From: Lutimaribacter degradans
Lineage (GTDB): Bacteria > Pseudomonadota > Alphaproteobacteria > Rhodobacterales > Rhodobacteraceae
Assembly: GCF_023703375.1 (NCBI RefSeq)
Contig: NZ_JAMQGO010000006.1
Location: 124,001-188,000, forward strand
DNA length: 64,000 bases
Direction of reading: 5' to 3'
The translations under genes and the position numbers were made by a program. Under the pieces are notes generated by a model. The model ran no database searches. It had not been told where the DNA came from and was given only the letters and a program-made list of their open reading frames with translations. Shown piece after piece: positions 1 to 16,444 of the stretch; the stretch's first letter is position 1, and each line of letters starts with the position of its first letter.

Positions 1-2062
1 CATGGCGCAGCACCAGGTCCTTTTGCAGGTCGCGCCGGTTTACCGGGGCGGCGGGCATGCCATAACTGCCATCTTCCTTCAGCTCGATATCCCACCACCA
101 TTTCTTGGAATCGTTCAGCCCGCCATTGCCCACCGCGTCATCCAGCTTCGCCAATACGGGCGCGGCTGCGGGTATGTGCATCGCCGCCCAGCGGAAAGGG
201 GCCTCGGCAAACAGCCCTTCAAGGTTCCAGGGGCAGGTTTTCATGCAGCGCCCGCACATGGCGCCGCCTTGCGTGGTAATGCGATAGGCGGCGCAACGCT
301 GGCTGTCCGATTTCCAGATCTCGTAGCCGTTGAACATCCGCTTGGGCCCGGCGGTGATGGCACCCGAGGGGCATTCGCGCGCGCACTTGTTGCAGGCTTC
401 GCAAAATCGTTGCAGGCCAAAATCTATCGGCCGGTCGTGGGCGACGGGCATGTCGGTGGTGACAGCGCCCGATTTGAGGCGCGGCCCGAGGAAGGGGTTC
501 AGGATCACCTCGCCGATCCGGCTTACCTCGCCCAGGCCCGACAAAAGCAAAAGCGGCGGTTGCAGCACCTCGCCATCCATCACGCTGTGGGCCTTGGCCG
601 AGAACCCGAGGTTGCGAATCTGTTGGGCAATAACGCTGCCCAAGATCGAAAAGCGCAGATAGGCGCGCATGGATTGCGCGACCGAGATCCAGTCGTCGCC
701 CGAGGCGCCTTCCATCGTCTCGTAGCCCTGGTCGACGATCATGGAAATCGCCTGGTCGTGCGGCGGGTCGATCGGGTCGCCAAGGGCGTCATGCGAATAC
801 CAGGCCCATTCGGGACAGCGCGACAGGCCCACGGCATCCATTCCCAGGAAATAACTTGCAGCTTTCAGGTTGGCCGCGTTTCGCGCGGGGTCTGTGGTGA
901 TGCGCGGGCTTGCCGCTGGGCCATCCTGCAGCAGAACAAAGGCCCCCAACGCGCGCCGCTGCGCCAGCGACGGCGCCTGCCTACGTACGTAAAGACCACC
1001 CGCCGCACCCTTTTGCAGCGCGCGGCCCATATCACCGAATTGCGCCCGGGCGAACAGGTCGGTGCGTTTGGGCACGCGGGCGACGTTGGGCTCGTCGATA
1101 TAGGTGGTGGGGTCGTCCACCCGTTTGAGCGTTTCGAACGGGTGCGGGCCGTCGGCGAAATCGCGGTTGGCGTAAGGGTCGGCGGTGCGGCCGGTTTTAG
1201 CGGTGTGGCCAGTTCCCAACTGCCAGCCGGGGCCGCGCATCCAATACCAGGGCTGCCGGTCCATCGGGGCCAGCGGGGCATCGCAGGCAAGAGCTATATC
1301 CGTCGTGATCACGCTCAGCCCGTAGCGATGGCCCAGCCAGGGCGCAGCCAGATCGGAATCGACCAGTCCCGCCGCCACCGCCAGCCGGTTCATGCAGACA
1401 TCGGCCGCAGCACCGGAATGTGCCCGCGCATCCCATCCCAGTAGGCGGATGTAATTTGCCAGCACCGTGGCGGTTTCAGCGCCACGCAGGCACGCGCGCT
1501 GGGCTTGCGCATTCATGATCCAGTCGCTGCCCGGCTCGTCCTCACGCGGGTCTCGCGGCCAGGCATAAAGCAATACCAGCGCGTGGGTGTGGTGCGAGAT
1601 CGGCGCGGGCGGGGTTTCGACGCTGCTGCGCAAATCGGCCATGACCTGGTCGATGCCGGCGGCCAGGGTATTGGTCTGTTCGGTGCGCAGCCGGTCGGTC
1701 AGGGGGGCTATGGCGGGATTTTCCACTGCCGAATCCAGCCAGGCGAGCTTGGGAATGCGCGCCACGCCAGCCATGTCCGCATCACAGAAATGAGCGAACG
1801 CCTTCAGGTGATTGGCCCTTTCGACAGGGTCGGCAGGAATTTCCGAGCGCGCGGGATTGGCCGCCCCGGTTCGCAGCACGTCAAGCATGGCCTGCGCGTC
1901 GCGCATGGCGTTCACGATGCTGGCGGGGTCATCGGGGCGCTCAAATCCCACCGGCGTGGCATGGGGCACGCCCGAAAGGTCGGGCATCGCCCCGCGTTTC
2001 AGCCGGTCAACGGGATAGGGCCCCAGGTGCAGGGGCCGGTTACGGGTGGAAAACAGGCGCAT
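1..2062 (-). CDS. Reductive dehalogenase, catabolic NpRdhA/BhbA-like (C-terminus beyond window)
   Basis: Reads leftward from ATG at 2062, behind a GGAGGG ribosome site, and stays open to the window edge, so at least 686 residues are visible and the C-terminus is missing. Around residues 553-605 are two ferredoxin-type cluster motifs, CxxCxxCxxxCP (CEACNKCARECP) and Cx12CxxCxxxCP (ending CGRCMKTCPW), the pattern of corrinoid reductive dehalogenases. The preceding region (SYFLGMDAVG, GASGDDWISVAQSMRAYLR) resembles the cobalamin-binding core of the non-respiratory NpRdhA type. The N-terminal part looks like a degenerate second copy of that core (AHFCDADMAGVAR, AQAQRACLRGAE), as known for NpRdhA. 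No Tat signal is seen, so it is probably cytoplasmic. Family members often carry a fused NAD(P)H reductase module at the C-terminus, which cannot be judged here. It lies 72 bp downstream of the enamidase gene on the same strand, probably in one operon. QueG is unlikely because of the length and the second core copy. Confidence 0.87.
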   Translation of the reverse strand, partial: MRLFSTRNRPLHLGPYPVDRLKRGAMPDLSGVPHATPVGFERPDDPASIVNAMRDAQAMLDVLRTGAANPARSEIPADPVERANHLKAFAHFCDADMAGVARIPKLAWLDSAVENPAIAPLTDRLRTEQTNTLAAGIDQVMADLRSSVETPPAPISHHTHALVLLYAWPRDPREDEPGSDWIMNAQAQRACLRGAETATVLANYIRLLGWDARAHSGAAADVCMNRLAVAAGLVDSDLAAPWLGHRYGLSVITTDIALACDAPLAPMDRQPWYWMRGPGWQLGTGHTAKTGRTADPYANRDFADGPHPFETLKRVDDPTTYIDEPNVARVPKRTDLFARAQFGDMGRALQKGAAGGLYVRRQAPSLAQRRALGAFVLLQDGPAASPRITTDPARNAANLKAASYFLGMDAVGLSRCPEWAWYSHDALGDPIDPPHDQAISMIVDQGYETMEGASGDDWISVAQSMRAYLRFSILGSVIAQQIRNLGFSAKAHSVMDGEVLQPPLLLLSGLGEVSRIGEVILNPFLGPRLKSGAVTTDMPVAHDRPIDFGLQRFCEACNKCARECPSGAITAGPKRMFNGYEIWKSDSQRCAAYRITTQGGAMCGRCMKTCPWNLEGLFAEAPFRWAAMHIPAAAPVLAKLDDAVGNGGLNDSKKWWWDIELKEDGSYGMPAAPVNRRDLQKDLVLRH

Positions 2063-3310: not shown

Positions 3311-3467
3311 GGCCGTGCCCCTTCTGTTGATTTCATTTGAACGCTAACAGAATTGGCAGATCGATCAAGCGGGCGCTTTTGCAGATGCAGCATGTTCGAA
3401 AGGGTTTGACAGAATCCCCCGTGCCGCGCTTTCTTGTATGTGTGCAAATGAAATTGGCGGAGGGCAC
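3311..3467. promoter_or_regulatory. Divergent control region with mirrored leaders
   Basis: This gap separates the leftward enamidase operon from the rightward hydroxylase operon. Each gene is preceded by a similar leader: TTTCATTTG at 3331-3339 and its exact reverse complement CAAATGAAA at 3445-3453, followed on each coding strand by a purine-rich ribosome site and GGCAC (CAGAAGGGGCAC leftward, CGGAGGGCAC rightward). A TTGACA -35-like hexamer lies at 3406-3411 on the plus strand, without a convincing -10 at normal spacing. The symmetry suggests a shared operator or a duplicated leader; the regulator is unknown, with the MarR protein at 10700-11128 as the nearest candidate. Confidence 0.5.
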
Positions 3468-4295
3468 ATGGGGTTTCACCGGCCTGACAGGATCGAGGAT
3501 GCGCTTGCGGCCTTGGCAAGCGGCGCCTCGGTGATCGCGGGGGGCACCGATTGGTACCCGTCGCGCGGCGATGGGCCGGTGCCCATGAACGTGCTGGACG
3601 TGACGCGCCTGCAGGGGTTTCGCGGCATCACGCGCGACGGGGCCGGGTGGCGCATTGGCGCAGCCACCACCTGGACCGACATTGCGCGCGCCGACTTGCC
3701 GCCCGCTTTTGACGGGTTGAAGCGGGCCGCGCGAGAGGTCGGCGGACTACAGATCCAGAACGCGGGCACACTGGGCGGCAACCTGTGCAACGCCTCGCCC
3801 GCAGCTGACGGGATGCCGCCGCTGCTGACGCTGGACCCAAAGGTTGAACTGATCGGCCCGCATGGCGCGCGCGAGGTTCCCTTGGCCGATTTCGTGACCG
3901 GCCCGCGCCAGGCCGACCTGCGCGAGGGCGAGTTGCTGGCCGCGCTGCACATCCCCGACCCCGGGCCATCGGCGGGCGGTTTCATCAAGCTGGGTGCGCG
4001 GAAATACCTGGTGATCTCGATCGCCATGGTCGCGGCGCTTGTCCATGTCGAAGGCGGGCGCGTGGCCTGGGCGCGTGTGGCCGTTGGGGCCTGTTCGCCG
4101 GTTGCGCGGCGCCTGTCGGCGCTTGAGGCCGACCTGCAGGGCGTGGCGGTCAACGCCTTGGCCGGTGCGGTGCGCCCCGATCATCTGAAAGATCTGTCGC
4201 CCATCGGCGATGTGCGCGGCAGCGCGGGCTATCGCCTTGACGCTGTGGCAGAATTGGTAGGCCGGGCCATAGCGCAGGCGGCAAGGGGGGCATGA
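3468..4295 (+). CDS. FAD-binding subunit of a molybdenum hydroxylase (xanthine dehydrogenase family)
   Basis: A 275-residue medium (FAD) subunit of the CoxM/XdhB type. The FAD pyrophosphate-binding motifs are present: VIAGGTDWYP near residues 26-35 and TLGGNLCNASPAADG near residue 100. It would pass electrons from the iron-sulfur clusters of the large subunit to NAD+ or another acceptor. I chose ATG 3468 because GGAGG lies four bases upstream; an in-frame ATG at 3438 would put the ribosome site inside the gene. Its stop overlaps the start of the next gene (ATGA), so the two are translationally coupled. The genes around it point to a nicotinate-like substrate rather than xanthine. Confidence 0.88.
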   Translation: MGFHRPDRIEDALAALASGASVIAGGTDWYPSRGDGPVPMNVLDVTRLQGFRGITRDGAGWRIGAATTWTDIARADLPPAFDGLKRAAREVGGLQIQNAGTLGGNLCNASPAADGMPPLLTLDPKVELIGPHGAREVPLADFVTGPRQADLREGELLAALHIPDPGPSAGGFIKLGARKYLVISIAMVAALVHVEGGRVAWARVAVGACSPVARRLSALEADLQGVAVNALAGAVRPDHLKDLSPIGDVRGSAGYRLDAVAELVGRAIAQAARGA

Positions 4296-7039
4296 TGGAC
4301 GACCAGACGGCAATCACGCGCACGGGTTTCAAGCTGAACGGGCAGGCGGTGTCGGTCGATGCCGACCCGGGTGAACGGCTGTCACACTCCTTGCGCGAAC
4401 GGCTGGGCGCGCGCGACGTAAAGGTGGGGTGCAACGCGGGCGATTGCGGGGCTTGTACGGTGCTGGTCGATGGCGCGGCGGTCTGTGCCTGCCTGATGCC
4501 GACGGCGCGGGCCGATGGCGCGCAGGTCGATACGCTGACAGGGCTGGTACGCAGCGACGAAGGTGCCCGCCTGGCGCTGGCGTTCCAGGCCCACCAGGCC
4601 GCGCAATGCGGTATCTGCACGCCAGGCATGATGGTCAGCGCCGTGGCGCTGCTGCGCGATGTCGGCGCGCCGACAGCCCAACAGGTGCGCGATGCCCTGG
4701 GCGGGGTTTTGTGCCGCTGTACCGGCTATGCCAAGATCGTCGATGCGATCGTGGCCGCCGGCGCGGGCAACGTGGCCCAGGCAGAGGTCAGCGGTGCGGT
4801 AGGCACGGCCCTGACCCGGCTGGATGGTGCGCCCAAGGTCGACGGGCGCGAGGCGTTCGGCGATGATGTGGCGCCCGATGGTGCGCTTGCGCTGCGGGTG
4901 ATCCGCTCGCCCCACTTCCACGCACGATTCACCCTTGGGGATATTGACGGGTTTCGGGCGGCGCATCCTTGGGTGGCATTGGTGTTGACAGCGGATGACG
5001 TGCCCGGAAGCAACGCCTTTGGCGTGATCCCGGGGTTCGAGGATCAGCCCGTTTTCGCCGAAGGTTATGCCCGGTTCCGCGGCGAGCCGATCGCCGCCAT
5101 CGTTGGCTCGGCCGACCAGTTGGCCCGCTTCGACGCGTCCGATTTTCCGGTCACCTGGGAAGACCTGCCGCCGATCCTGGATGTTGCTGAGGCGATGGCC
5201 GATGGCGCGCCCGAACTGCACAAGGGGCACGCGCAAAACGTGATGACCGGTGGTTTCGTGCGGCACGGGCAGGCCGATGACGCGCTGGCGCGTGCCGATG
5301 TGGTGGCCGAGGGCGATTTCACCACTGGCTTTGTCGAGCACGCCTATATCGAGCCCGAAGCCGGGTTTGCCGAGGTCGTGGATGGCCGCGTGCATGTGCA
5401 TGCCTGCACGCAGGCCCCGGTGATGGACCAGCAAATGCTGGCCAAGGCATTGGCCTTGCCACTTGAAAGCATCCGCATCGTGCCGACAGCCACCGGGGGT
5501 GGGTTTGGCTCGAAGCTCGATGTTTCCGTGCAGCCATTCCTTGCGCTGGCCGCGCTGAAACTGGGCCAGCCGGTGCGCATGGCCTATTCGCGCATCGAAT
5601 CGATGCAATCGACCACCAAACGCCATCCCGCGCAGATCAGCCTTAAAATCGGCGCGTGCAAGGATGGCACGCTGTCGGGGATGCATTTCGAGGGGCTGTT
5701 CAACACTGGTGCTTATGCCAGTTGGGGGCCGACCGTGGCCAACCGTGTGCCGATCCATGCCTCGGGGCCCTATCGCGTGGCCGATTACCTGGCACAGGCG
5801 CGCGGAATCTACACCAACGGCCCGCCCGCGGGTGCGTTTCGCGGCTTTGGCGTGCCGCAATCGGCCATCGCGCAAGAGGTTTTGTTCGACGAACTCGCCG
5901 ATCAGCTTGGCATAGACGCACTGGATTTTCGTCTGAAGAACGCGCTGGTAAACGGCGTGCCCACGGTTTGCGGGCAAGTGTTCGATCAGGGTGTTGGCAT
6001 CAAGCCCTGCTTCGAGGCGCTGCGCCCCGCCTGGGCCGAATGGGGTGCGGCCTGCGCGGCGTTCAACGCTGAAAACGATACGCTGAAACGTGGCGTCGGC
6101 ATTGCCGGGGGCTGGTACGGCTGCGGCAACACCTCGTTGCCCAACCCCTCGACCATCAAGGCCGGTCTGCGTGCCGACGGCACGGTTGTGCTGCACCAGG
6201 GCGCTGCGGATATCGGCCAAGGCTCGAATACGGTTATCACGCAGATCTTCGCACAGGCATTGGGCGTTGATCCGCGCGACGTACTGATCAAGGGGGGCGA
6301 TACCGATGTCACGCCGGACGCGGGCAAGACCTCGGCCAGCCGGCAGACTTTCGTCACCGGCAACGCCGCGCGGCTGTCGGGCACGGCGCTTCGGCGGCAG
6401 GTGCTGGCGCTGGTCAACGCGCCCGAGGACGCGGTTCTTCGGCTCGGGCCGGATGCCCATGTGCAGGATGGCAGCGGCGCGCATGATCTGCGGCTTGACC
6501 AGCTCCCCGCCGATTCCGAGGGTTTCGTGATGCGCGTGGCCGAAACCTATGACCCGCCGACCGAGCCCCTGGATGAAAACGGCCAGGGCGTGCCTTATGC
6601 GCAGTTCGGCTATGCCGCGCACCTGGCACTGGTTGAGGTCGACACAAGGCTGGGCACCGCGCGCGTGCTGCGGTTCAAGGCCGCCCATGACGTGGGCCGC
6701 GCAATAAACCCGCTTCTGATCGAGGGTCAGGTCGAAGGCGGGGTGGCGCAGGGGCTGGGCCTTGCCCTGATGGAGGAATACATCCCAGGCCGCACCGAGA
6801 ACCTGCACGATTACCTGATCCCCACCTTCGGTGACATGCCGGAGATCGAAACCCTTGTCATCGAAGAAGAGGACGCGCACGGCCCCTTTGGCGCAAAGGG
6901 GCTGGGTGAACACGCGCTGATCCCCACGGCACCCGCGATTTTGAATGCCATTGCGCGTGCCACCGGCGCACGGCTGCGGCAGGTGCCCGTCACGCCCGCG
7001 CGCTTGCGCGCGGCGTTGAAGGAGGCGGGCCATGCGTGA
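4292..7039 (+). CDS. Molybdenum hydroxylase, fused [2Fe-2S] and molybdopterin subunits; probable nicotinate-type dehydrogenase
   Basis: A 915-residue fusion. Residues 1-160 form the small subunit: C47, C52, C55 and C67 for the plant-type [2Fe-2S] cluster, and C106, C109, C141 and C143 for the second cluster (CGICTPG, CRCTG). Residues from about 165 onward are the molybdopterin-binding CoxL/XdhB-like part, with GGGFGSK, GAFRGFG and, near the C-terminus, GAKGLGEH, whose E873 is the expected catalytic glutamate. Members hydroxylate N-heteroaromatic rings with water as the oxygen source. With the FAD subunit just upstream and the ring reductase and enamidase nearby, the likely reaction is hydroxylation of a nicotinate-like acid at C6. 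An annotation as xanthine dehydrogenase would be generic. In Eubacterium barkeri these parts are separate polypeptides; fused iron-sulfur/Mo subunits are known elsewhere in the family. Confidence 0.85.
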   Translation: MMDDQTAITRTGFKLNGQAVSVDADPGERLSHSLRERLGARDVKVGCNAGDCGACTVLVDGAAVCACLMPTARADGAQVDTLTGLVRSDEGARLALAFQAHQAAQCGICTPGMMVSAVALLRDVGAPTAQQVRDALGGVLCRCTGYAKIVDAIVAAGAGNVAQAEVSGAVGTALTRLDGAPKVDGREAFGDDVAPDGALALRVIRSPHFHARFTLGDIDGFRAAHPWVALVLTADDVPGSNAFGVIPGFEDQPVFAEGYARFRGEPIAAIVGSADQLARFDASDFPVTWEDLPPILDVAEAMADGAPELHKGHAQNVMTGGFVRHGQADDALARADVVAEGDFTTGFVEHAYIEPEAGFAEVVDGRVHVHACTQAPVMDQQMLAKALALPLESIRIVPTATGGGFGSKLDVSVQPFLALAALKLGQPVRMAYSRIESMQSTTKRHPAQISLKIGACKDGTLSGMHFEGLFNTGAYASWGPTVANRVPIHASGPYRVADYLAQARGIYTNGPPAGAFRGFGVPQSAIAQEVLFDELADQLGIDALDFRLKNALVNGVPTVCGQVFDQGVGIKPCFEALRPAWAEWGAACAAFNAENDTLKRGVGIAGGWYGCGNTSLPNPSTIKAGLRADGTVVLHQGAADIGQGSNTVITQIFAQALGVDPRDVLIKGGDTDVTPDAGKTSASRQTFVTGNAARLSGTALRRQVLALVNAPEDAVLRLGPDAHVQDGSGAHDLRLDQLPADSEGFVMRVAETYDPPTEPLDENGQGVPYAQFGYAAHLALVEVDTRLGTARVLRFKAAHDVGRAINPLLIEGQVEGGVAQGLGLALMEEYIPGRTENLHDYLIPTFGDMPEIETLVIEEEDAHGPFGAKGLGEHALIPTAPAILNAIARATGARLRQVPVTPARLRAALKEAGHA

Positions 7040-7111: not shown

Positions 7112-8608
7112 ATGCCTGACGATACCCCCCGCCGCCCCAAGCCGGAAAAGATCCGTTGCGATGCCTGCCCGGTCATGTGCTACATCGCCGACGGCAAGGC
7201 TGGCGCCTGCGACCGTTATGCCAATCACGGGGGGGAACTGGTGCGGCTCGATCCGCTGACGGTGATCCAGTCAGGCGCGCGGGCGGTTGCGTTCCTGCAT
7301 GATGATGCACAGGCCCAGGATTGGGATGGCGACGTGATCCAGGGTGACCGGACCTTTGTAACTGCCGTGGGGGCTGGCACCACTTATCCCGATTACAAGC
7401 CCGCGCCCTTCATCGTCAGCCAGGATGTCGAAGGGGTGGACATGGTCACCGTCGTGACCGAGGGAATATTCAGCTACTGCGGCGTCAAGGTCAAGATCGA
7501 CACCGATCGCCATATCGGCCACGAGCGCGCCGTGGTGCGCGTGGATGGCGAGGCGATCGGCCATGTGATGACCTCGGAATACGGCTCGAAAATGCTGTCG
7601 CTGGGCGGCGTCGAGCATTTGACAGGGGGCAGCAAGAAAGAGGGCCGCGTGACCTGCGATGCGCTGCTGCGCCTGTGCAATCGCGACGCTGTGGAAATGC
7701 AGATCGACGGGGGCGCCACGCTGGTGGTGCAGGCCGGAAAGCCACCTGTCATCAATGGGGCGCCCGAGAAATTGATGCGCGTCGGCTGTGGCTCGGCCAC
7801 GATCGGGATGTTCGCCAAGCAGTGGGAAGGTCACGTAGACGAGGTGATCGTGGTGGATGATCATATCACCGGTGTGCTGACCGAGCACGAGGCTGGCAAA
7901 CAGCTGGGCATGCGACCCTCGGGGATAAGGATCAACGGCCGCCGCTCGACGCCGGGGCGCTATTTCCAGGTGGCCGAACCGGGCACCGGCTGGGGGGGCA
8001 CCGATGTTGATGACCCGTTGACGGTCTTGCGCCCCGCCGATCCAAAGAACGCCTGGCCCGGTTTGCGGCTGCTGATGGTTTCGACGACGGGTGAGCAATG
8101 GGCCTTTTTCACGCTTGACGAAGAGTTGCAGCCACAACCGGCCGACATCACGCCGCCGCTGCTTAAAACCTGCGAGCGCATCGCGGAAAACTGCGAACCG
8201 TCGCTTTGCTCGGTTCTGTTCATGGGCGGTGCAGGGGGCAGCCTGCGTGCCGGTGTCACTGAAAACCCGGTGCGCCTGACCCATTCGGTCAAGGATGCGC
8301 TGACATATGTCAGCTGTGGCGGGGCCGAGGCCTATGTCTGGCCCGGTGGTGGTATCACCTTCATGGCCGATGTGATGGATATGCCCACGAATTCGTTCGG
8401 TTACGTGCCGACCCCCGCGTTGGTCGCACCCATTGAATTCACCCTGCGGGCCGAGGACTACGCCGCGTTGGGCGGGCACACGGAACATGTGCAGCCGGTT
8501 GACTCCGTGCTGAACCCCGAGATCCGCAAGGTGCTGCCGCAGGGCGGGCCTGATCCGCATACGCGCCAGCACCACCGATGGAGCCATTCACGCAAGGGGC
8601 GCAAATGA
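7112..8608 (+). CDS. hnr: 6-hydroxynicotinate reductase-like protein
   Basis: A 498-residue protein that I recognise as the family annotated 6-hydroxynicotinate reductase, which in Eubacterium barkeri reduces 6-hydroxynicotinate to tetrahydro-6-oxonicotinate with reduced ferredoxin and carries FAD and iron-sulfur centres. At the N-terminus C16, C19, C23 and C33 (CDACPVMC plus AGACDRY) can ligate an iron-sulfur cluster. The body is soluble and glycine-rich (GAGTTYPDYKPAPF, GGAGGSLRAGVT, SCGGAEAYVWPGGG), without membrane segments. ATG 7112 follows an AGGAAC ribosome site. It comes 72 bp after the Mo hydroxylase and overlaps the next gene by four bases. Function is by family recollection and context. 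No ferredoxin gene is visible in the window. Confidence 0.78.
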   Translation: MPDDTPRRPKPEKIRCDACPVMCYIADGKAGACDRYANHGGELVRLDPLTVIQSGARAVAFLHDDAQAQDWDGDVIQGDRTFVTAVGAGTTYPDYKPAPFIVSQDVEGVDMVTVVTEGIFSYCGVKVKIDTDRHIGHERAVVRVDGEAIGHVMTSEYGSKMLSLGGVEHLTGGSKKEGRVTCDALLRLCNRDAVEMQIDGGATLVVQAGKPPVINGAPEKLMRVGCGSATIGMFAKQWEGHVDEVIVVDDHITGVLTEHEAGKQLGMRPSGIRINGRRSTPGRYFQVAEPGTGWGGTDVDDPLTVLRPADPKNAWPGLRLLMVSTTGEQWAFFTLDEELQPQPADITPPLLKTCERIAENCEPSLCSVLFMGGAGGSLRAGVTENPVRLTHSVKDALTYVSCGGAEAYVWPGGGITFMADVMDMPTNSFGYVPTPALVAPIEFTLRAEDYAALGGHTEHVQPVDSVLNPEIRKVLPQGGPDPHTRQHHRWSHSRKGRK

Positions 8609-9474
8609 CCGGACCTGTCGCCGCCATCCTGCCCGGCCAGCGCTTGCATTTGCAGCACGGGCCCATCGACCTGGTGATCGGGGCGGATGGCGACCGTGAC
8701 GCCGCTTTTGCTGCTGCAACAGACCGCTTCCAAACCGTGTTGGAGGAACTCGTGCAGGAGTTGCCGCTGCTGCGCCGCCCGGTGGGGGATGCGCCTGCCG
8801 GCCTGGTGGCGCAACGCATGCACGCAGCATGCATACCCCAGGCCGAGGGTGTCACCTTTGTCACGCCAATGGCCGCGGTGGCCGGATCGGTTGCTGATGA
8901 GGTTCTGGCCGCGATGGTTGCCGCAGCGCCGCTGACCCGCGCCTATGTAAACAACGGCGGCGATATCGCGCTGTACCTTGGTCCGGGCGCGCGGTTCGAG
9001 ATCGGTCTGGCCGGTCTGGATGGCATCGGCCTGGGCAGGGCCTGTGTCGATGCGGACATGGCGGTGCGTGGCGTGGCGACCAGTGGCGCGGGCGGGCGCA
9101 GCCTGAGCCTGGGGATCGCCGACAGCGTGACTGTTCTGGCGGCCAATGCCGCTGCGGCGGATGTGGCGGCCACGCTGATCGCGGGGGCGGTCGACCTGGC
9201 CGATCATCCCGAAATTCGACGCGTGCCCGCAAGCGACGTGCAGGATGACAGTGACCTGGGCGACCGCCCGGTCGTGCGTGCGGTCGGTCTGTTGACCCCG
9301 GATGAGGTGGCACGTGCCTTGGCAGCCGGTGTTGCGGCGGCAAGGCAGATGCGGCAGCGTGGGCTGATCGTCGGCGCGGCGCTTATGCTGCGCGGGCAGG
9401 CGCGCGTGGTGGGCGATATCGCCCCGCGTGCCGTTCATGACAAACAAGAAGAAGGAATCCTGGCCCATGCCTGA
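8605..9474 (+). CDS. UPF0280 family ApbE-like protein
   Basis: A 289-residue protein of the UPF0280 family, distantly related to ApbE flavin transferases; the motif VNNGGDIALYLG near residues 115-126 matches the ApbE NxGGD signature. ApbE proteins attach FMN covalently to flavoproteins, but UPF0280 members have no proven role, so flavin handling for the ring reductase is only a suggestion. I chose ATG 8605, which overlaps the stop of the reductase gene (ATGA) and follows AAGGGGC; an in-frame ATG at 8578 is the alternative. Its 3' end overlaps the next gene by 8 bp, so the genes are translationally coupled. Confidence 0.75.
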   Translation: MTGPVAAILPGQRLHLQHGPIDLVIGADGDRDAAFAAATDRFQTVLEELVQELPLLRRPVGDAPAGLVAQRMHAACIPQAEGVTFVTPMAAVAGSVADEVLAAMVAAAPLTRAYVNNGGDIALYLGPGARFEIGLAGLDGIGLGRACVDADMAVRGVATSGAGGRSLSLGIADSVTVLAANAAAADVAATLIAGAVDLADHPEIRRVPASDVQDDSDLGDRPVVRAVGLLTPDEVARALAAGVAAARQMRQRGLIVGAALMLRGQARVVGDIAPRAVHDKQEEGILAHA

Positions 9475-10051
9475 CGTGGAAATCCGAAAGATCCTGACCA
9501 CCGTCGAAGAGGTGTTTCACGAGGGCGGACCGCGCGCCAACGTGCCCTATCGCCGGGCGGCCATCGTGGCCGTGATCGCCAACCCCTACGCCGGTGAATA
9601 TGTCGAGGATATCCAGCCCTTCATGGAAGACCTCAAACCGTTGGGTGTGATGATGGCGCAGCGGCTGGTCGAAGCGCTGGGTGGCGATTCGTCGGTTGTC
9701 GAAGGCTACGGCAAGGGCGCCATCGTGGGCCTTGAGGGTGAGGTTGAGCACGGCGCGTTGTGGCACGCGCCGGGTGGCTACGCGATGCGCGAGGTACTGG
9801 GAGGCTCCAAGGCCATCGTGCCGTCGACCAAGAAAGTGGGCGGGCCGGGCACCCGGCTGGACGTGCCCGTGACGCATACCGATGCGTCCTATGTGCGCAG
9901 CCATTTTGACGCGATCGAGGTGGGGCTGAACGATGCACCGCGCGCGAGAGAGATGGCGGTTGTTCTCGTGATGACAACGGGCGCGCGCGTGCATGACCGT
10001 GCGGGCGGGTTGGCTGCCAAGGACATCAAGGGAGAGGATGGTTTGAGATGA
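9467..10051 (+). CDS. AA_synth (DUF1185) family protein, copy 1
   Basis: A 194-residue protein of the AA_synth/DUF1185 family (named 'amino acid synthesis' with no proven reaction). Recognisable blocks are RRAAIVAVIANPYAG, GYGKGAIVG, EHGALWHAP, VPSTKKVGGPG and DASYVRSHFD. It is a soluble protein with no cysteine cluster or signal. ATG 9467 is preceded by GAAGGAA inside the end of the upstream gene, and the stop overlaps the start of copy 2 (ATGA). Its place directly after the ring reductase and UPF0280 genes suggests an unassigned step or an accessory role in the same heterocycle pathway. Confidence 0.75.
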   Translation: MPDVEIRKILTTVEEVFHEGGPRANVPYRRAAIVAVIANPYAGEYVEDIQPFMEDLKPLGVMMAQRLVEALGGDSSVVEGYGKGAIVGLEGEVEHGALWHAPGGYAMREVLGGSKAIVPSTKKVGGPGTRLDVPVTHTDASYVRSHFDAIEVGLNDAPRAREMAVVLVMTTGARVHDRAGGLAAKDIKGEDGLR

Positions 10052-10632
10052 GCGCGGATATTCGCAAACTGGCTGTCTGGGTCGAAGAAACACACACCGA
10101 GATAGGCAAACGGATCGACCCGCCCACCCGCAAGGCGGTGGCCGTGGCGGTGATCGCCAACCCCTTTGCCGGGCACTACCATGACGATCTTTCGGAACTG
10201 ATGGAGATCGGCGCCGAACTGGGCGGCTTGCTGGGCGAACGGGCCGTGGCCGCTCTGGGCATCGCGCCGGAACAGGCCGAAAGTTATGGCAAGGCCGCAA
10301 TGGTCGGCGAGAATGGCGAACTGGAACATGCTGCCGCCATCCTGCACCCGAAACTGGGTGCACCCTTGCGGAAAGCGGTGGAAAAGGGGGCGGCGCTGGT
10401 GCCGTCGTCCAAGAAAATGGGTGGGCCCGGTCAGGACCTGGACGTGCCTTTGGGCCACAAGGATGCGGCCTATGTGCGGAGCCATTTCGACGGGGTGGAA
10501 GTGCGGTTGAACGATGCGCCGCGTGCTGATGAAATCCTCGTCGCCGTGGCCGTGACCGACAGCGGTCGCCCCTTGCCACGCGTGGGCGGGCTGACCCATG
10601 ACGAGGCCGAAGGAAAAGACGGGCTGCGTTGA
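10048..10632 (+). CDS. AA_synth (DUF1185) family protein, copy 2
   Basis: A 194-residue paralogue of the preceding gene, of identical length, with the same blocks in the same order: RKAVAVAVIANPFAG, SYGKAAMVG, EHAAAILHP, VPSSKKMGGPG and DAAYVRSHFDGVE. The two have diverged widely outside these blocks, so this is an old duplication that may form a hetero-oligomer or act on two related intermediates. It ends the operon that starts at 3468. No reaction is established for the family, and I assign none. Confidence 0.75.
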   Translation: MSADIRKLAVWVEETHTEIGKRIDPPTRKAVAVAVIANPFAGHYHDDLSELMEIGAELGGLLGERAVAALGIAPEQAESYGKAAMVGENGELEHAAAILHPKLGAPLRKAVEKGAALVPSSKKMGGPGQDLDVPLGHKDAAYVRSHFDGVEVRLNDAPRADEILVAVAVTDSGRPLPRVGGLTHDEAEGKDGLR

Positions 10633-10699: not shown

Positions 10700-11128
10700 T
10701 CAAAGCTTGTCCAGCAACGCCAAAAGCCGGGTCAGTTCGCGCTGGGTCAGCTTGGCGGCGGTGGCGCGTGAAATCTCGGTCGCGGTGGCCACGGCCCGGT
10801 CTGCGAACATGTGGCCCTCGTCGGTCAGGGAAATCACCAGCCGGCGCAGGTCCGTCGGGCTTTTGCGGCTTTCCACCAACCCCTTGGCGCGCAGCCTGTC
10901 GACCACGCCCTTGGTTGTCGCGGCGTCGAGCCCGACGCGCCGGCCCAGGTCGTTTTGAGAGATCGGCCCGGTTTCACGCAGCCGTGCCAGGATGGCGAAC
11001 TGGGTGGGCGTGACCTCGGGCATCATGCGGGCGAACAGTTCAAGATGTTTCTGGTTCGCCAGCCGCAGCTTGAAACCGATCTGGTCCTCAAGCCGGTATT
11101 CCGTGTCGGTGTTGACGTTCATGTCCAT
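10700..11128 (-). CDS. MarR family transcriptional regulator
   Basis: A winged-helix regulator of about 142 residues. The DNA-binding core is clear: TPTQFAILARL, then GPISQNDLGRRVGLDAATTKGVVDRL (recognition helix), and the wing SRKSPTDLRRLVISLT. Such proteins usually bind palindromes near their own gene and are released by small aromatic ligands. The start is uncertain: ATG 11128 follows GGCGGAACGG; ATG 11122 and GTG 11152 are alternatives. It faces away from the Rieske-fragment/ABC importer operon and shares its promoter region, so it probably controls that operon and perhaps the heterocycle genes. Confidence 0.85.
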   Translation of the reverse strand: MDMNVNTDTEYRLEDQIGFKLRLANQKHLELFARMMPEVTPTQFAILARLRETGPISQNDLGRRVGLDAATTKGVVDRLRAKGLVESRKSPTDLRRLVISLTDEGHMFADRAVATATEISRATAAKLTQRELTRLLALLDKL

Positions 11129-11205
11129 CCGTTCCGCCCAGTTTGGAACCACTCTTTCACGTTATTCGCGCATGGTCCAATATTTGCGGGAATACGGGGG
11201 CAGAA

Positions 11206-11298: not shown

Positions 11299-11793
11299 AT
11301 GAGTTTTGTCCAAAATGTCCGGCCTGTCGCCGGCTGGTCGCGCGATTTCGGCGATACGCTGAAACCGGTCATGACCGGTGGGCGGGCCAAGGAGATGTTT
11401 TGCGCCTCGGCGGGCCGGATCGTCGAGCGGATTTATTTTGGCCGCGTCGATGCGGGGCGCAACCTGCCCGAGGATGCCCCCTTGCATTACGTGATCCGCG
11501 TGACCGAAGATTACGCAATCGACCACTGGATGCATATGCGCAGCATGGCGCAGGATCATGACAAGGCCCGCGCCCGTATGGATGCGGTGCTCCGGGGCGA
11601 CTGTGAAGAGGATAAGCAGGTGCTGGGCGCCATTCACGAGGAAGAGCAGAGGCCGCAGACACGAAAGCCCGTTCGCATCGCCATCGACAAGGCGCCGAAT
11701 GTTTACAGCAAGCGCATCCGCGATCTGGTCGATGCGGAAACGTCAGAATATCCGGGAGAACCGGAAAGGCCGACATTCGTTCAGCACGACTGA
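11299..11793 (+). CDS. Free-standing Rieske oxygenase C-terminal (VanA_C-like) domain
   Basis: A 164-residue soluble protein without a signal peptide. Its second half resembles the C-terminal part of the alpha subunit of VanA-like Rieske oxygenases: HYVIRVTEDYAIDHW, then an acidic turn CEEDKQVLGAIH (compare FxxDxxVLEAQQ in the family), then AIDKAPNVYSKRIRDLVDAE. No Rieske cluster motif (CxH...CxxH) and no full iron-binding triad are present, and nothing upstream in frame could supply them. ATG 11299 follows AAGGGAG at 11283-11289; an in-frame ATG at 11275 lacks one. It lies 32 bp before the ABC importer genes and is probably co-transcribed with them. It may be a decayed oxygenase or a binding protein; the assignment is moderate. 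Confidence 0.55.
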   Translation: MSFVQNVRPVAGWSRDFGDTLKPVMTGGRAKEMFCASAGRIVERIYFGRVDAGRNLPEDAPLHYVIRVTEDYAIDHWMHMRSMAQDHDKARARMDAVLRGDCEEDKQVLGAIHEEEQRPQTRKPVRIAIDKAPNVYSKRIRDLVDAETSEYPGEPERPTFVQHD

Positions 11794-11825: not shown

Positions 11826-13031
11826 ATGAAAAGAAAGACATTTCTCAAAGGCATGATCGGGGCCGCCGCGCTGGCCGCGATGCCGCTGAGTGCCGCCGCG
11901 CAAGACCCCATCAAGATCGGCGAGATCAACCACTACAAACGCATGGCTGCCTTTGCCGAGCCCTACAGGAACGGGATCGAACTGGCGCTTGAACAGGTGA
12001 ACGAAAACGGTGGCGTGATGGGCCGGCCGCTGGAATTCATCTTTCGCGATGACCAGGGCGAGCCCGGCGAGGCGATCAAGATCGCCGAAGAACTGATGAC
12101 CCGCGACGGCGCGGTGATGCTGACCGGCTCGATCCTGTCGAATGTCGGTCTGGCGATCTCGTCGCTGGCGGCGCAGCGCGGCTATGTCTACTTGGCGTCC
12201 GAGCCGCTGGCCGACAGCCTGGTCTGGGAGTCGGGCAACGACTACACCTTCCGGCTGCGTACCTCGACCTACATGCAGGCCGCCATGCTGGCCGAAGAGG
12301 CGGCCAAGACCGATGCCACGACATTCGCGACGATCGCGCCCAACTATGCCTATGGCAAGGATGCGGTGTCGGCCTTCAAGGAAAATCTGCTGCGGCTGAA
12401 ACCGGAAGCCGAATTCGTGGCCGAGCAGTGGCCCGCCCTGTTCAAGATCGACGCCGGGGCCGAGGTCCAGGCGCTCGAACGGTCCAAGCCTGACGCCATC
12501 TACAACGTGACCTTTGGGCCGGACCTGGGCAAATTCGTGCGTGAAGGTACTGACCGTGGTCTGTTCGAAGGCCGTCAGGTTTTCGGCCTGCTGTCGGGCG
12601 AACCCGAGTACCTGGACCCGCTGGGTGCCGAGGCACCCGAGGGTTGGATCGTGACCGGCTATCCCTGGTATGATCTGAAAGAGGGCGCGGCGGGCGCGTT
12701 CGTTTCCGCCTATCAAGAGCGGTGGGACGACTATCCGCGGCTGGGGTCGATCGTGGGTTACATGACCGTGCAATCCATCGCCGCAGCACTGGAAAAGGCC
12801 GGCAGCACCGAAACCGACGCGATCCGCGAGGCGTTCAAGGACCTCACGCTGGACACGCCGATGGGTGAAATCACCTATCGCGGCATCGACCACCAGTCGA
12901 CCATGGGCGCCTACGTGGGCACACTCGCCTTGCGTGACGACAAGGGCGTGATGGTGGATTGGGTCTACAAGGATGGCGCCGATTACCTGCCGTCCGACGA
13001 AGAGGTCAGCAAGCTCCGCCCGGCGGACTGA
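11826..13031 (+). CDS. ABC importer substrate-binding protein, branched-chain amino acid/aromatic type
   Basis: A 401-residue periplasmic binding protein of the Peripla_BP_6 (LivJ-like) class. Residues 1-26 are a signal peptide with a basic start (MKRKTF), a hydrophobic core and the cleavage site AAAQ. The mature start IKIGEINHY, the block NENGGVMGRPLEFIFRDDQG and the phrase AIYNVTFGPDL are typical. Although named for branched-chain amino acids, this class also imports aromatic acids, amides and urea. The preceding MarR gene and the catabolic genes suggest that it delivers the aromatic substrate. AGAGAGGGAAG precedes the ATG. It is the second gene of the operon that starts at 11299. Confidence 0.88.
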   Translation: MKRKTFLKGMIGAAALAAMPLSAAAQDPIKIGEINHYKRMAAFAEPYRNGIELALEQVNENGGVMGRPLEFIFRDDQGEPGEAIKIAEELMTRDGAVMLTGSILSNVGLAISSLAAQRGYVYLASEPLADSLVWESGNDYTFRLRTSTYMQAAMLAEEAAKTDATTFATIAPNYAYGKDAVSAFKENLLRLKPEAEFVAEQWPALFKIDAGAEVQALERSKPDAIYNVTFGPDLGKFVREGTDRGLFEGRQVFGLLSGEPEYLDPLGAEAPEGWIVTGYPWYDLKEGAAGAFVSAYQERWDDYPRLGSIVGYMTVQSIAAALEKAGSTETDAIREAFKDLTLDTPMGEITYRGIDHQSTMGAYVGTLALRDDKGVMVDWVYKDGADYLPSDEEVSKLRPAD

Positions 13032-13111
13032 TCCGCGCGATATCGATACCCGCCGCGCGGTCAGCGCCGTGCGGCGGGGCATTTCCCACATAAACCAGGA
13101 CAGGGATGTAG

Positions 13112-14974
13112 ATGGGCCTTTTCATCGCTCAGCTATTGACGGGGCTTGCCAATGCAGGGGCGCTTTTCATGGTCGCCTCGGGGCTTAGCCTGATCTTTGG
13201 CGTCACCCGCATCGTAAATTTCGCGCATGGCAGTTTCTACATGCTGGGCGCCTATGTCGGTTACACTCTGATTCAGGTGCTTCCCGGCGTGGTCGGATTC
13301 TGGGGGGCCATCCTACTGGCGGGGCTGGCCGTGGGGCTGATCGGCATGTTGGTCGAAATCCTGGTGCTGCGCCCCGTCTATCGCGCGCCCGAGCTGTTTC
13401 AACTGGTTGCCACTTTCGGGGTGATCCTTGTGATTCAGGACCTGGCACTGATGACATGGGGCCCCGAGGATCTGCTGGGCCCGCGTTCACCGGGGCTGGT
13501 CGGCGTGGTGCGCATCATGGGTGAACCCGTTCCGAAATACGATATCGCCTTGCTGGTGATCACGCCCTTCGTGGCGCTGGCCTTGTGGTACCTGATGACG
13601 CAGACGCGCGTTGGCGTGCTTGTGCGCGCCGCGACCCAGGACCGGGAAATGGTGGGCGCGCTGGGTGTAAACCAGGCATGGCTGTTCACGGGCGTCTTCG
13701 CGTTGGGGTGTGGCCTGGCTGGGCTGGGCGGGGCTTTGCAACTGCCCAAGGGCGGTGCGGACCTGATGATGGATTTCAACATCCTGACGGCCGTGTTCGT
13801 GGTGGTGGTGATCGGCGGCATGGGGTCTTTGCCCGGCGCCTACCTGGCCGCAGTGATCATCAGCGTTCTGAACGTGTTCGGCGTGACCTACATTCCGCAA
13901 TCCACCCTTGTGCTGATGTTCATCGTCATGGTGCTGGTGCTGATGATCCGTCCCTACGGCCTGTTTGGCCGCGAAGAGGTGGCCGGTGAGCACGGCCAGG
14001 TCGGCGAGCCCGAGCGCCCGATCAAACCCGCCGGTTTGCAGGTGCGCCTGCTGGTGGCCGCGGGCGTGGCGGCACTGGCGGCGCTGCCGCTTTATGGCTC
14101 GGGCTTCATGCAGGTTCTTACAACCGACATCCTGATCTTCTGCCTGTTTGCCGCCTCGCTGCATTTCCTGCTGGGTCTGGGCGGGCTGGTCAGCTTTGGG
14201 CACGCGGCCTATTTCGGCGGTGGCGCCTACGTGGCCGGGCTGTTGGTGAAACATGCCGGCACGCCGATGGAGTTGGCGTTTATCCTGGCGCCGCTTGGCG
14301 CGGGTCTGGGCGCGTTCATCATCGGCTGGGTGTGCCTGCGGTTGACGGGCGTCTACTTCGCCATGCTGACGTTGGCTTTCGCACAACTGCTGTGGAGCCT
14401 GGTGTTCCAATGGGGCGAATTCACCGGCGGTGACGATGGCATCCTGGGGCTATGGCCCGCGAAATGGTTGAGCGGCACGACGCCCTATTTCTACTTTACC
14501 CTGGTCTTCAGCGTGGGGGGCGTACTGTTCTTGAGACATGTCGCGCATTCGCCCTTTGGCTATGCCTTGCGCGCCGCGCGTGACAGCGAACGCCAGGCCG
14601 AGGCGACGGGTATCAACACACGTCGCGTGCGTATGCTGGCCTTTTCCTTCGCGGGCTTCATGGCCGGGCTGGCGGGCGGTTTGTTCGTCTTCTCCAAAGG
14701 CAGCATTTTCCCCAACGAGCTTGAGATCACGCGCAGTTTCGACGCGTTGATCGTGGTGTTCCTGGGCGGTGTGAAAACCCTTTCGGGTGGCATCGTCGGC
14801 GCCGCCTTCTTCAAGGGGGTCGAGGACGTGCTGACCCGCTTTGAATATTGGAGGCTTGCCATGGGTCTGTTGATTATCGGTGTGGTCATCCTCGCGCCTG
14901 ACGGGATCGTGGGAACATTGCGCAAATGGGCCGAGCGGCTGGGCGTGCTGAAAAGAGCGGAGGACGAGTCATGA
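13112..14974 (+). CDS. ABC importer permease, LivH-LivM fusion
   Basis: A 620-residue inner-membrane protein that combines both permeases of a Liv-type importer. Residues 1-290 are LivH-like (GLSLIFGVTRIVNFAHG near the start, and FVVVVIGGMGSLPGA). A charged linker at about 288-310 (GREEVAGEHGQVGEPERPIK) follows, and residues 310-610 are LivM-like (GGLVSFGHAAYFGGGAYVAG, LRAARDSERQAEATGI). Many hydrophobic segments occur in both halves. In most importers of this class these are two genes; fusions are known but less common. The stop overlaps the start of the ATPase gene (ATGA). Confidence 0.9.
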   Translation: MGLFIAQLLTGLANAGALFMVASGLSLIFGVTRIVNFAHGSFYMLGAYVGYTLIQVLPGVVGFWGAILLAGLAVGLIGMLVEILVLRPVYRAPELFQLVATFGVILVIQDLALMTWGPEDLLGPRSPGLVGVVRIMGEPVPKYDIALLVITPFVALALWYLMTQTRVGVLVRAATQDREMVGALGVNQAWLFTGVFALGCGLAGLGGALQLPKGGADLMMDFNILTAVFVVVVIGGMGSLPGAYLAAVIISVLNVFGVTYIPQSTLVLMFIVMVLVLMIRPYGLFGREEVAGEHGQVGEPERPIKPAGLQVRLLVAAGVAALAALPLYGSGFMQVLTTDILIFCLFAASLHFLLGLGGLVSFGHAAYFGGGAYVAGLLVKHAGTPMELAFILAPLGAGLGAFIIGWVCLRLTGVYFAMLTLAFAQLLWSLVFQWGEFTGGDDGILGLWPAKWLSGTTPYFYFTLVFSVGGVLFLRHVAHSPFGYALRAARDSERQAEATGINTRRVRMLAFSFAGFMAGLAGGLFVFSKGSIFPNELEITRSFDALIVVFLGGVKTLSGGIVGAAFFKGVEDVLTRFEYWRLAMGLLIIGVVILAPDGIVGTLRKWAERLGVLKRAEDES

Positions 14975-15750
14975 GCGTGGTTCTGGAAACCCGGGGCCTG
15001 ACCAAGGCCTTTGGCGGGCTGGTGGCGGTGAACGACGTATCGTTACAGTTGCACAAGGGCGAGTTGCTGGCACTGATCGGGCCCAACGGCGCAGGCAAAA
15101 GCACGTGTTTCAACATGCTGATGGGGCAGTTGCGCCCCACCAAGGGCAGCGTGCACCTTATGGGAGAGGACATAACCGGGCTTTCGCCGCGCGTAATCTG
15201 GCGTCGGGGCGTCGGGCGGACGTTCCAGATCACGGCCACCTATGCCTCGATGACGGTGGTTGAAAATGTTCAGATGGCGCTGCTGTCGCATAATCACCAG
15301 GTGCTGAAGGTGCTGCCCTATGCGCACAAGATGCACCGCGACCGCGCGCATGAGCTGCTTGAGATGGTCGGCATGGCCGAACAGGCGGATCGCCATTGCG
15401 CGGTCCTGGCCTACGGTGATCTCAAGCGGCTGGAGTTGGCCATCGCGTTGGCGCATGAGCCGACGCTGTTGCTGATGGACGAACCCACGGCCGGCATGGC
15501 CCCGCGAGAGCGGATCGCGCTGATGCAACTGACGGCGGATATCGTGCGCGACCAGGGTGTAAGTGTGCTGTTCACCGAACATGACATGGACGTGGTGTTT
15601 GCCCATTCGCATCGCATCATGGTGCTGAACCGCGGGCAGTTGATTGCCGATGGCAATGTCGAAGCCATTCGAAACGACCCCCGCGTGCAAGAGGTGTACC
15701 TTGGCGGCGGCACCGTGTTCAAATCGGAAGACGAGGCAGAAGATGCTTGA
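14971..15750 (+). CDS. livG: ABC importer ATPase, LivG-like
   Basis: A 259-residue cytoplasmic ATPase that powers the importer. It has Walker A GPNGAGKST near residue 38, the family's long insert, and Walker B LLLMDEPTAGMAP with the extended LivG tail. The signature region reads AYGDLKRLELA instead of the usual LSYGxQRRLE form, a small deviation. The start at 14971 overlaps the permease stop, and the end overlaps the second ATPase by 8 bp, so the four importer genes form one tightly coupled unit. Confidence 0.92.
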   Translation: MSVVLETRGLTKAFGGLVAVNDVSLQLHKGELLALIGPNGAGKSTCFNMLMGQLRPTKGSVHLMGEDITGLSPRVIWRRGVGRTFQITATYASMTVVENVQMALLSHNHQVLKVLPYAHKMHRDRAHELLEMVGMAEQADRHCAVLAYGDLKRLELAIALAHEPTLLLMDEPTAGMAPRERIALMQLTADIVRDQGVSVLFTEHDMDVVFAHSHRIMVLNRGQLIADGNVEAIRNDPRVQEVYLGGGTVFKSEDEAEDA

Positions 15751-16444
15751 ACTGAGCGCGGTCAATTCCTTTTACGGCAAGGCACATGTGCTGAACGACC
15801 TGAGTTTCACGGTCGCGCGCGGGCAGGTGGTGGCATTACTTGGCCGCAATGGCGCGGGCAAGACCACGACGATGAAATCCATCATGCAACTGGTGCAGCC
15901 GCGCAGCGGCAAGGTGACGTTCCAGGGCCAGGACATCACCGGCATGCCCACGCACAAGGTGGCCAAGCTGGGGCTGGGCTATGTTCCCGAAGAGCGGCGA
16001 ATCTTTACCGATCTGACAGTGGCCGAAAACCTTGAGGTTGGCCGCCAGCCGCCGCGTGATGGCACCTATGCCTGGACGACCGACATGCTTTTCGACCTGT
16101 TCCCGAACCTGGCCGAGCGGCGCGGCAACCGCGGCAAGGCCCTTTCCGGGGGAGAGCAGCAGATGTTGACCATTGCGCGCACGCTGATGGGCAACCCCAG
16201 CCTGGTTTTGCTCGATGAACCGAGCGAGGGCATCGCCCCCGTGATCGTTGAACAGATGGTCAACGTGATCAAGACGCTCAAGGCTGACGGGCTGACGGTG
16301 CTGTTGTCAGAGCAGAACCTGCATTTCGCCCGCGCGGTGGCCGATATGGCGGTGATCATCGAGGGGGGCACACAGAAATTCAACGGCACGCTGGAAGAGC
16401 TGAATGCCCATCCCGAGATCCGCGACGCCTACCTTTCGATTTGA
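15743..16444 (+). CDS. livF: ABC importer ATPase, LivF-like
   Basis: The second ATPase of the importer, 233 residues. It begins MLELSAVNSFYGKAHVL, the usual LivF opening, then has Walker A GRNGAGKTT, signature LSGGEQQMLTIAR and Walker B LVLLDEPSEGIAP. ATG 15743 lies inside the end of the LivG gene. It is the last gene of the catabolic and uptake region; no terminator hairpin with a T-run was seen in the 87 bp that follow. Confidence 0.92.
   Translation: MLELSAVNSFYGKAHVLNDLSFTVARGQVVALLGRNGAGKTTTMKSIMQLVQPRSGKVTFQGQDITGMPTHKVAKLGLGYVPEERRIFTDLTVAENLEVGRQPPRDGTYAWTTDMLFDLFPNLAERRGNRGKALSGGEQQMLTIARTLMGNPSLVLLDEPSEGIAPVIVEQMVNVIKTLKADGLTVLLSEQNLHFARAVADMAVIIEGGTQKFNGTLEELNAHPEIRDAYLSI

Follow-up and report, generated by a model that had tools for sequence, protein, structure and literature searches.

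A gene cluster for the reductive degradation of nicotinate has been drawn for Azorhizobium caulinodans, Bradyrhizobium, and strain SG-6C, in which two conserved proteins were left as unknown and the equivalent transporter was called a putative nicotinate transporter (PMC3511419). Here, we analyzed a 64,000-nucleotide stretch of the genome of Lutimaribacter degradans (NZ_JAMQGO010000006.1, positions 124,001 to 188,000, forward strand), hereafter the window, within which window coordinates are counted. The genes in question encode Hnr (an iron-sulfur protein resembling 6-hydroxynicotinate reductase), the UPF0280 protein PRK04334, and two DUF1185 proteins, DUF1185-A and DUF1185-B. In the raw sequence, the overlaps measure 4 bp between hnr and the UPF0280 gene (ATGA), 8 bp between the latter and the DUF1185-A gene, and 4 bp between the two DUF1185 genes (ATGA), bearing out the operon-like coupling claimed in an earlier reading of this DNA (the original prediction). 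Family and domain matches confirm that the four overlapping genes sit inside a putative reductive nicotinate degradation cluster, together with a molybdenum hydroxylase, an enamidase, and a transporter. The locus differs from the published clusters and from that of Eubacterium barkeri in that the 2Fe-2S and molybdenum subunits of the hydroxylase are fused, both clades of DUF1185 proteins are represented, and the enamidase gene is followed by one for a fused reductive dehalogenase.

Two exact co-occurrences stand out in this cluster type, one between UPF0280 and Hnr and the other between DUF1185-B and the enamidase. In a survey of 289 alphaproteobacterial genomes, Hnr (threshold, >300 bits) was found in 44, and strong matches to UPF0280 were found in exactly those 44 genomes, which come from about 28 families. 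The Fisher test for this co-occurrence gave 4e-53, a value that overstates independence because the genomes are related. The two genes are located side by side or at contig ends in these genomes. In 45 further loci (flanks, up to 10 kb), UPF0280 was found together with Hnr in every case where the sequence extended far enough, and on plasmids it is present in 26 of 26 Hnr records. Only one plasmid UPF0280 gene, from Hydrogenophaga BPS33, has no Hnr with it; because it is located immediately behind an IS1071 transposase, it is probably a remnant. Neither a canonical ApbE nor an FMN_bind protein was found in the L. degradans genome itself, and ApbE is absent from 22 of 46 Hnr genomes. The gene arrangement is seen again in almost every alphaproteobacterial locus with sufficient flank, which is far beyond chance, and three non-alphaproteobacterial genomes keep hnr, UPF0280, and DUF1185 together, sometimes rearranged and with the usual hydroxylase not in the cluster. 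The original prediction had named rarity of the two families next to such reductases as evidence against itself; this was not seen, with UPF0280 present in 44 of 44 Hnr genomes and a DUF1185 gene of any type in 39 of 44. Hnr is thus very probably the client of UPF0280.

The claim that UPF0280 is ApbE-like is upheld by matches of both fold and profile. The protein scores 359 bits against NCBIfam NF003322 (PRK04334.1-2; cut-off, 290; E, 1e-107), and an AlphaFold2 model built from 28 homologues had a predicted local distance difference test score (pLDDT) of 91.9. A Foldseek search with this model returned 2o34 (DUF375) first and then only ApbE, Ftp, and FmnB structures at high probability (7esc: E, 1.7e-5; probability, 1.0). 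Alignment by hhalign with a profile of 25 ApbE sequences (probability, 92.9; E, 3.6e-7) placed the ATSG and ADVAAT metal motifs in register; the Pfam PF02424 (ApbE) model itself does not detect UPF0280. The catalytic triad of Vibrio cholerae ApbE is Asp285-Ser241-His257 (PMC12052999), and the equivalents of its Ser and Asp, Ser160 and Asp186, are invariant in 28 UPF0280 sequences. UPF0280 thus shares the fold, the (I)ATSG and AD..AT motifs, and two triad residues with the ApbE/Ftp/FmnB family (PF02424) but differs in having no HxxDPxTG His loop and in having a client, Hnr, without the standard target motif.

Hnr matched no Pfam, NCBIfam, or PDB family, and its identity is based on plasmid homologues annotated as 6-hydroxynicotinate reductase. 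It has nine invariant Cys residues (positions 16, 19, 23, 33, 123, 182, 189, 226, and 361), consistent with Fe-S ligands. The E. barkeri enzyme reportedly carries a covalent flavin. A DGGAT sequence near residue 203 of Hnr looked right as an ApbE target motif and was discarded, as it is not conserved.

Our best reading is that UPF0280 is a dedicated flavin maturase of Hnr, a link that we consider near-certain, with the chemistry as our inference. That UPF0280 installs flavin on Hnr is, in our judgment, about evenly balanced, and covalent transfer of FMN by the ApbE mechanism is hypothetical. Of the flavin delivery originally proposed, the partnership of the two proteins is well supported, and the transfer itself is hypothetical in view of the missing His loop and target motif. 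Several observations count against the maturase. The loop bearing the general-base His of ApbE (His257 in V. cholerae) is deleted in UPF0280, which has Leu, Phe, or Met at the aligned place. The strict ApbE target motif, D-x-x-[STG]-[GAS]-A-[TS], occurs in 0 of 81 Hnr homologues, and the closest sequence, a loose GSAT motif at Thr230, is found in 61 of 81, with Ala in 20. The AlphaFold2 model of Hnr (24 sequences) was poor (pLDDT, 60.7) and had no PDB match. Control searches also found UPF0280 relatives in methanogens, which are not known as nicotinate degraders, and there are therefore additional clients or roles; finally, co-occurrence is no substitute for biochemistry. A permanent subunit that binds FAD or FMN would fit the 1:1 linkage with Hnr and the overlapping genes as well as a maturase does, and the absence of the His loop and of a conserved target motif also favors a protein of this kind, a partner of Hnr in electron transfer, or an FAD pyrophosphatase over a flavin transferase. 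However, ApbE-type transferases and 2o34 are the only matches to the fold, the Asp/Ser pair and the AD..AT metal motif are kept, and UPF0280 has no conserved Cys for clusters, leaving these alternatives possible but rather unlikely.

Both DUF1185 proteins belong to Pfam PF06684 (now AA_synth), with scores of 240 and 248 bits against a gathering score of 27. In a phylogenetic tree, 56 A-type and 51 B-type sequences form separate clades, with two further A-like sequences falling with A; judged from these sequences, the twin genes represent two old clades and not a recent duplication. The closest proteins of known structure are BB2672 (3BYQ) for DUF1185-A (205 bits) and SPO0826 (2QTP) for DUF1185-B (350 bits), both named as amino acid related from their transporter neighbors. 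When DUF1185-B was defined by at least 73% identity to the window copy and true enamidase by at least 64% identity, DUF1185-B was present in 19 of the 289 genomes, the same 19 that harbor the true enamidase, from 13 families. One genome (G082) harbors the enamidase and DUF1185-B without Hnr or UPF0280, and in five others (G001, G007, G065, G185, and G279), DUF1185-B lies right beside the enamidase and away from Hnr (and UPF0280). Distant enamidase paralogues (39 to 43%) in G060, G202, and G210 also adjoin a DUF1185 gene. The true enamidase is absent from 26 of the 44 Hnr genomes, where only A-type DUF1185 is found by UPF0280, and 23 of these 26 are without any DUF1185-B-like gene. DUF1185-A therefore stays with Hnr and UPF0280, and DUF1185-B is tied to the enamidase. 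This split rules out Hnr, the enamidase, and the twin DUF1185 proteins as a single inseparable block.

Across A-type, B-type, and other DUF1185 proteins, R6, N38, K82, G87, E93, H94, R108, D156, E162, R174, and R178 are practically invariant. The 3BYQ structure has a large cavity at the dimer interface, beside conserved His93, Arg176, and Glu90, among others (PMC2954203), and some of the residues kept in both clades lie by this cavity. Outside nicotinate loci, DUF1185 genes recur with genes for an alpha/beta hydrolase, a flavin reductase, an LLM flavin oxygenase, and an aldehyde dehydrogenase, often also with a cytosine permease, and by analogy this layout appears to resemble the Rut pyrimidine pathway or trigonelline-like ring-opening operons. 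RutC deaminates aminoacrylate in the Rut pathway (PMC8113886), and DUF1185 operons share its context of flavin oxygenase, flavin reductase, alpha/beta hydrolase, and permease, although DUF1185 is a hexamer and RutC/Rid a trimer, and the pathway product here is a dicarboxylate. No Rid family match was obtained for DUF1185, PF06684 being the only Pfam match at E <= 0.001. Rid proteins are small and oligomeric and have a chorismate-mutase-like fold, which we count as a likeness to DUF1185; we know of no sequence similarity between the two, and DUF1185 would at most be a functional analogue.

Another parallel is TgnF of Acinetobacter baylyi, which, as cited in PMC7913881, is a DUF1185 homologue encoded in a pyridine ring degradation cluster near a semialdehyde step and is reported to stimulate succinic semialdehyde oxidation during trigonelline degradation, a route in which ring opening is oxygenolytic rather than reductive as here. 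This report qualifies the statement in the original prediction that DUF1185 has no known reaction. From pathway chemistry, we infer that a 2-(aminomethylene) or 2-formyl dicarboxylate precedes the semialdehyde in nicotinate and trigonelline degradation alike, and because the two routes would converge on such dicarboxylates, the enamidase product is the best-supported step for DUF1185-B. Since DUF1185-B follows the enamidase, also in one Hnr-less genome, it most probably works on what ring opening yields, 2-formylglutarate or the corresponding enamine, and not on the reductase. It may hydrolyze the enamine, tautomerize or decarboxylate 2-formylglutarate, or aid the next dehydrogenase. The handling of 2-formylglutarate proposed originally for the twins thus fits DUF1185-B, which follows the enamidase in 19 of 19 genomes, and does not fit the pair as a single unit.

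Assigning DUF1185-B to the ring-opening step faces its own difficulties. G080, G195, and G104 harbor DUF1185-B-like genes (63 to 74% identity) without a true enamidase. Purified E. barkeri enamidase is said to yield 2-formylglutarate unaided, which weakens the enamine hydrolase version. For HcdD, the DUF1185 protein of a coumarin cluster that involves no nitrogen chemistry, no stimulation was seen when it was looked for (PMC7913881). The last result also bears on the idea that DUF1185 is a helper of an aldehyde dehydrogenase, releasing the semialdehyde from the hydrate, lactol, or enamine form as TgnF would do for TgnE. The reported effect of TgnF (as cited in PMC7913881), the aldehyde dehydrogenases that adjoin DUF1185 in LLM clusters, and the DUF1185 gene next to an aldehyde:ferredoxin oxidoreductase and the enamidase in G001 speak for such a helper; however, the nicotinate clusters examined have no conserved aldehyde dehydrogenase, and HcdD showed no comparable effect, and we therefore regard this role as doubtful. 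The overlapping genes and the hexameric state of DUF1185 proteins (PMC2954203) could instead indicate structural partners that stabilize or hetero-oligomerize with Hnr, as the original prediction had also suggested. We consider this improbable, and the pair can no longer be viewed as a unit with the reductase: the twins are two old clades, almost no enamidase-less Hnr genome has DUF1185-B but the Hnr-less G082 does, many Hnr genomes lack DUF1185-A, and the invariant Arg, Glu, His, and Lys residues of both clades point to catalysis. Least probable is the reading behind the label "amino acid synthesis," which relied on neighboring transporters of the branched-chain amino acid type (PMC2954203). 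DUF1185-B is close to SPO0826, and the transporter here belongs to the nicotinate cluster, and so nicotinate import explains that argument.

In the pathway that we propose, the four genes would be the middle of an aerobic reductive nicotinate degradation operon. The molybdenum hydroxylase would produce 6-hydroxynicotinate, Hnr would reduce the ring to the lactam 1,4,5,6-tetrahydro-6-oxonicotinate, and the enamidase would convert the lactam to 2-formylglutarate, which would proceed toward glutarate. UPF0280 would be a cytosolic, single-client relative of ApbE that binds FAD and puts flavin, probably covalently, onto Hnr. DUF1185-B would be an enzyme of the ring-opening step with an Arg-, Glu-, and His-rich pocket between subunits, and its substrate would be either the enamine 2-(aminomethylene)glutarate, a task like that of RutC/RidA, or 2-formylglutarate, which would be tautomerized or decarboxylated to glutarate semialdehyde. 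DUF1185-A would be the sister enzyme of the Hnr/UPF0280 half, kept also where HyuA/HyuB replace the enamidase. Gene order, co-occurrence, clades, and the UPF0280 fold are observed, and with flavin transfer and the DUF1185 substrates and reactions being proposals, we would give the explanation as a whole an even chance. A more specific version is that UPF0280 is a cytosolic flavin transferase with a single client, has no ApbE general base, and modifies the ring reductase at a nonstandard site, while DUF1185 represents a new family of enzymes for the aminomethylene- or formyl-dicarboxylates that pyridine ring opening releases, an unrelated protein thus filling a RutC-like role, with clade B dedicated to enamidase pathways; this version is tentative and would more probably fail than hold in full.

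HyuA, accompanied by HyuB where the flank reaches, is encoded near the cluster or its DUF1185-A gene in 16 of the 26 enamidase-less Hnr genomes, and HyuB was found in 0 of 32 Hnr loci holding the enamidase. From these gene contents, the hydantoinase pair HyuA/HyuB is predicted to be an ATP-dependent replacement of the enamidase. Enamidase-less hnr clusters with the pair (PF01968/PF02538) include L153, L161, L163, L165, L173, L177, L178, L179, and L189, among others.

Additional genes were noted around hnr and the enamidase. A tungsten/molybdenum aldehyde:ferredoxin oxidoreductase (PF01314) is encoded beside the enamidase in G001 (C88:67291-70175, with DUF1185-B as well), G194 (C129:75488-78459), and G287 (C68:144991-147950), where it could oxidize the aldehyde product and supply low-potential electrons to a ferredoxin-dependent Hnr. 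A general role in donating electrons or removing the aldehyde was rejected, the enzyme being found in only 12 of the 44 genomes searched (43 with Hnr), in 3 beside the enamidase, and not in the L. degradans genome. Near hnr, several loci (L055:15270-16076, L057, L058, L110, and L111) have a gene resembling that of a ferredoxin reductase (PF00970), whose product is a candidate for donating electrons to Hnr. In G028 (C1:2969811-2971261), hnr is split over two overlapping open frames, probably by a frameshift.

The features of the cluster are listed in the table. The start of UPF0280 was taken as an ATG, with an alternative ATG possible upstream at 8578; that of DUF1185-A is an ATG overlapping the UPF0280 stop codon, with upstream starts possible at 9428 and 9437. 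The enamidase gene is divergent, and its closest PDB entry is 2vun (ENAMIDASE; E, 1.4e-106), matched over the full length. The domains of the hydroxylase are those expected of the molybdenum hydroxylase of such a cluster, its nicotinate specificity being putative.

Features of the nicotinate cluster in the L. degradans window
Feature	Position	Strand	Basis
Enamidase (opens 1,4,5,6-tetrahydro-6-oxonicotinate), 391 aa	2135-3310	-	PDB 2vun
FAD subunit, xanthine-dehydrogenase-family hydroxylase, probable nicotinate hydroxylase	3438-4295	+	PF00941, PF03450
Fused 2Fe-2S and molybdopterin subunit of probable nicotinate hydroxylase	4292-7039	+	PF00111, PF01799, PF01315, PF02738, PF20256
hnr (6-hydroxynicotinate reductase-like), 498 aa, iron-sulfur protein	7112-8608	+	Plasmid homologues so annotated
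UPF0280 (PRK04334), 289 aa, ApbE-fold protein	8605-9474	+	NCBIfam NF003322
DUF1185-A (PF06684 AA_synth), 194 aa, BB2672/3BYQ clade	9467-10051	+	Pfam, tree
DUF1185-B (PF06684 AA_synth), 194 aa, SPO0826/2QTP clade	10048-10632	+	Pfam, tree
MarR-family regulator, kept in many hnr loci	10700-11152	-	Family match
ABC transporter of the branched-chain amino acid type (binding protein, fused permease, and two ATPases), probable importer of nicotinate	11826-16444	+	Family matches; equivalent in PMC3511419

Directly after the enamidase gene, on the minus strand, is a gene for a fused catabolic reductive dehalogenase of 1,064 aa (window positions 2 to 2062; full gene, L225:4869-8063 or G000:C43:122868-126062). 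It matches TIGR02486 (203 bits) and 4ras (E, 5e-155) and has a tail like phthalate dioxygenase reductase (2pia; E, 2e-53). A search of hnr loci found this gene in three close relatives only (L033, L036, and L072). Its presence suggests halogenated nicotinates or pyridines as substrates. Positions 11299 to 11793 (+) hold a 164-aa remnant of a VanA-type Rieske oxygenase with most of the Rieske half deleted; in about 16 other hnr loci, an intact gene (about 350 aa) is present at this position or close to it.

Although this type of cluster had been published, its unknown proteins were not assigned there (PMC3511419). Both UPF0280 and DUF1185 are widespread, no reaction has been settled for either family, and the label "amino acid synthesis" was given to DUF1185 on weak grounds. 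What is new here is that UPF0280 co-occurs exactly with Hnr, and DUF1185-B with the enamidase, which names one client and one metabolic step. Many genomes are predicted to use the ATP-dependent HyuA/HyuB in place of the enamidase. With a client and a step named, the question of the covalent flavin and the missing step in pyridine breakdown can be tested directly by using two or three purified proteins.

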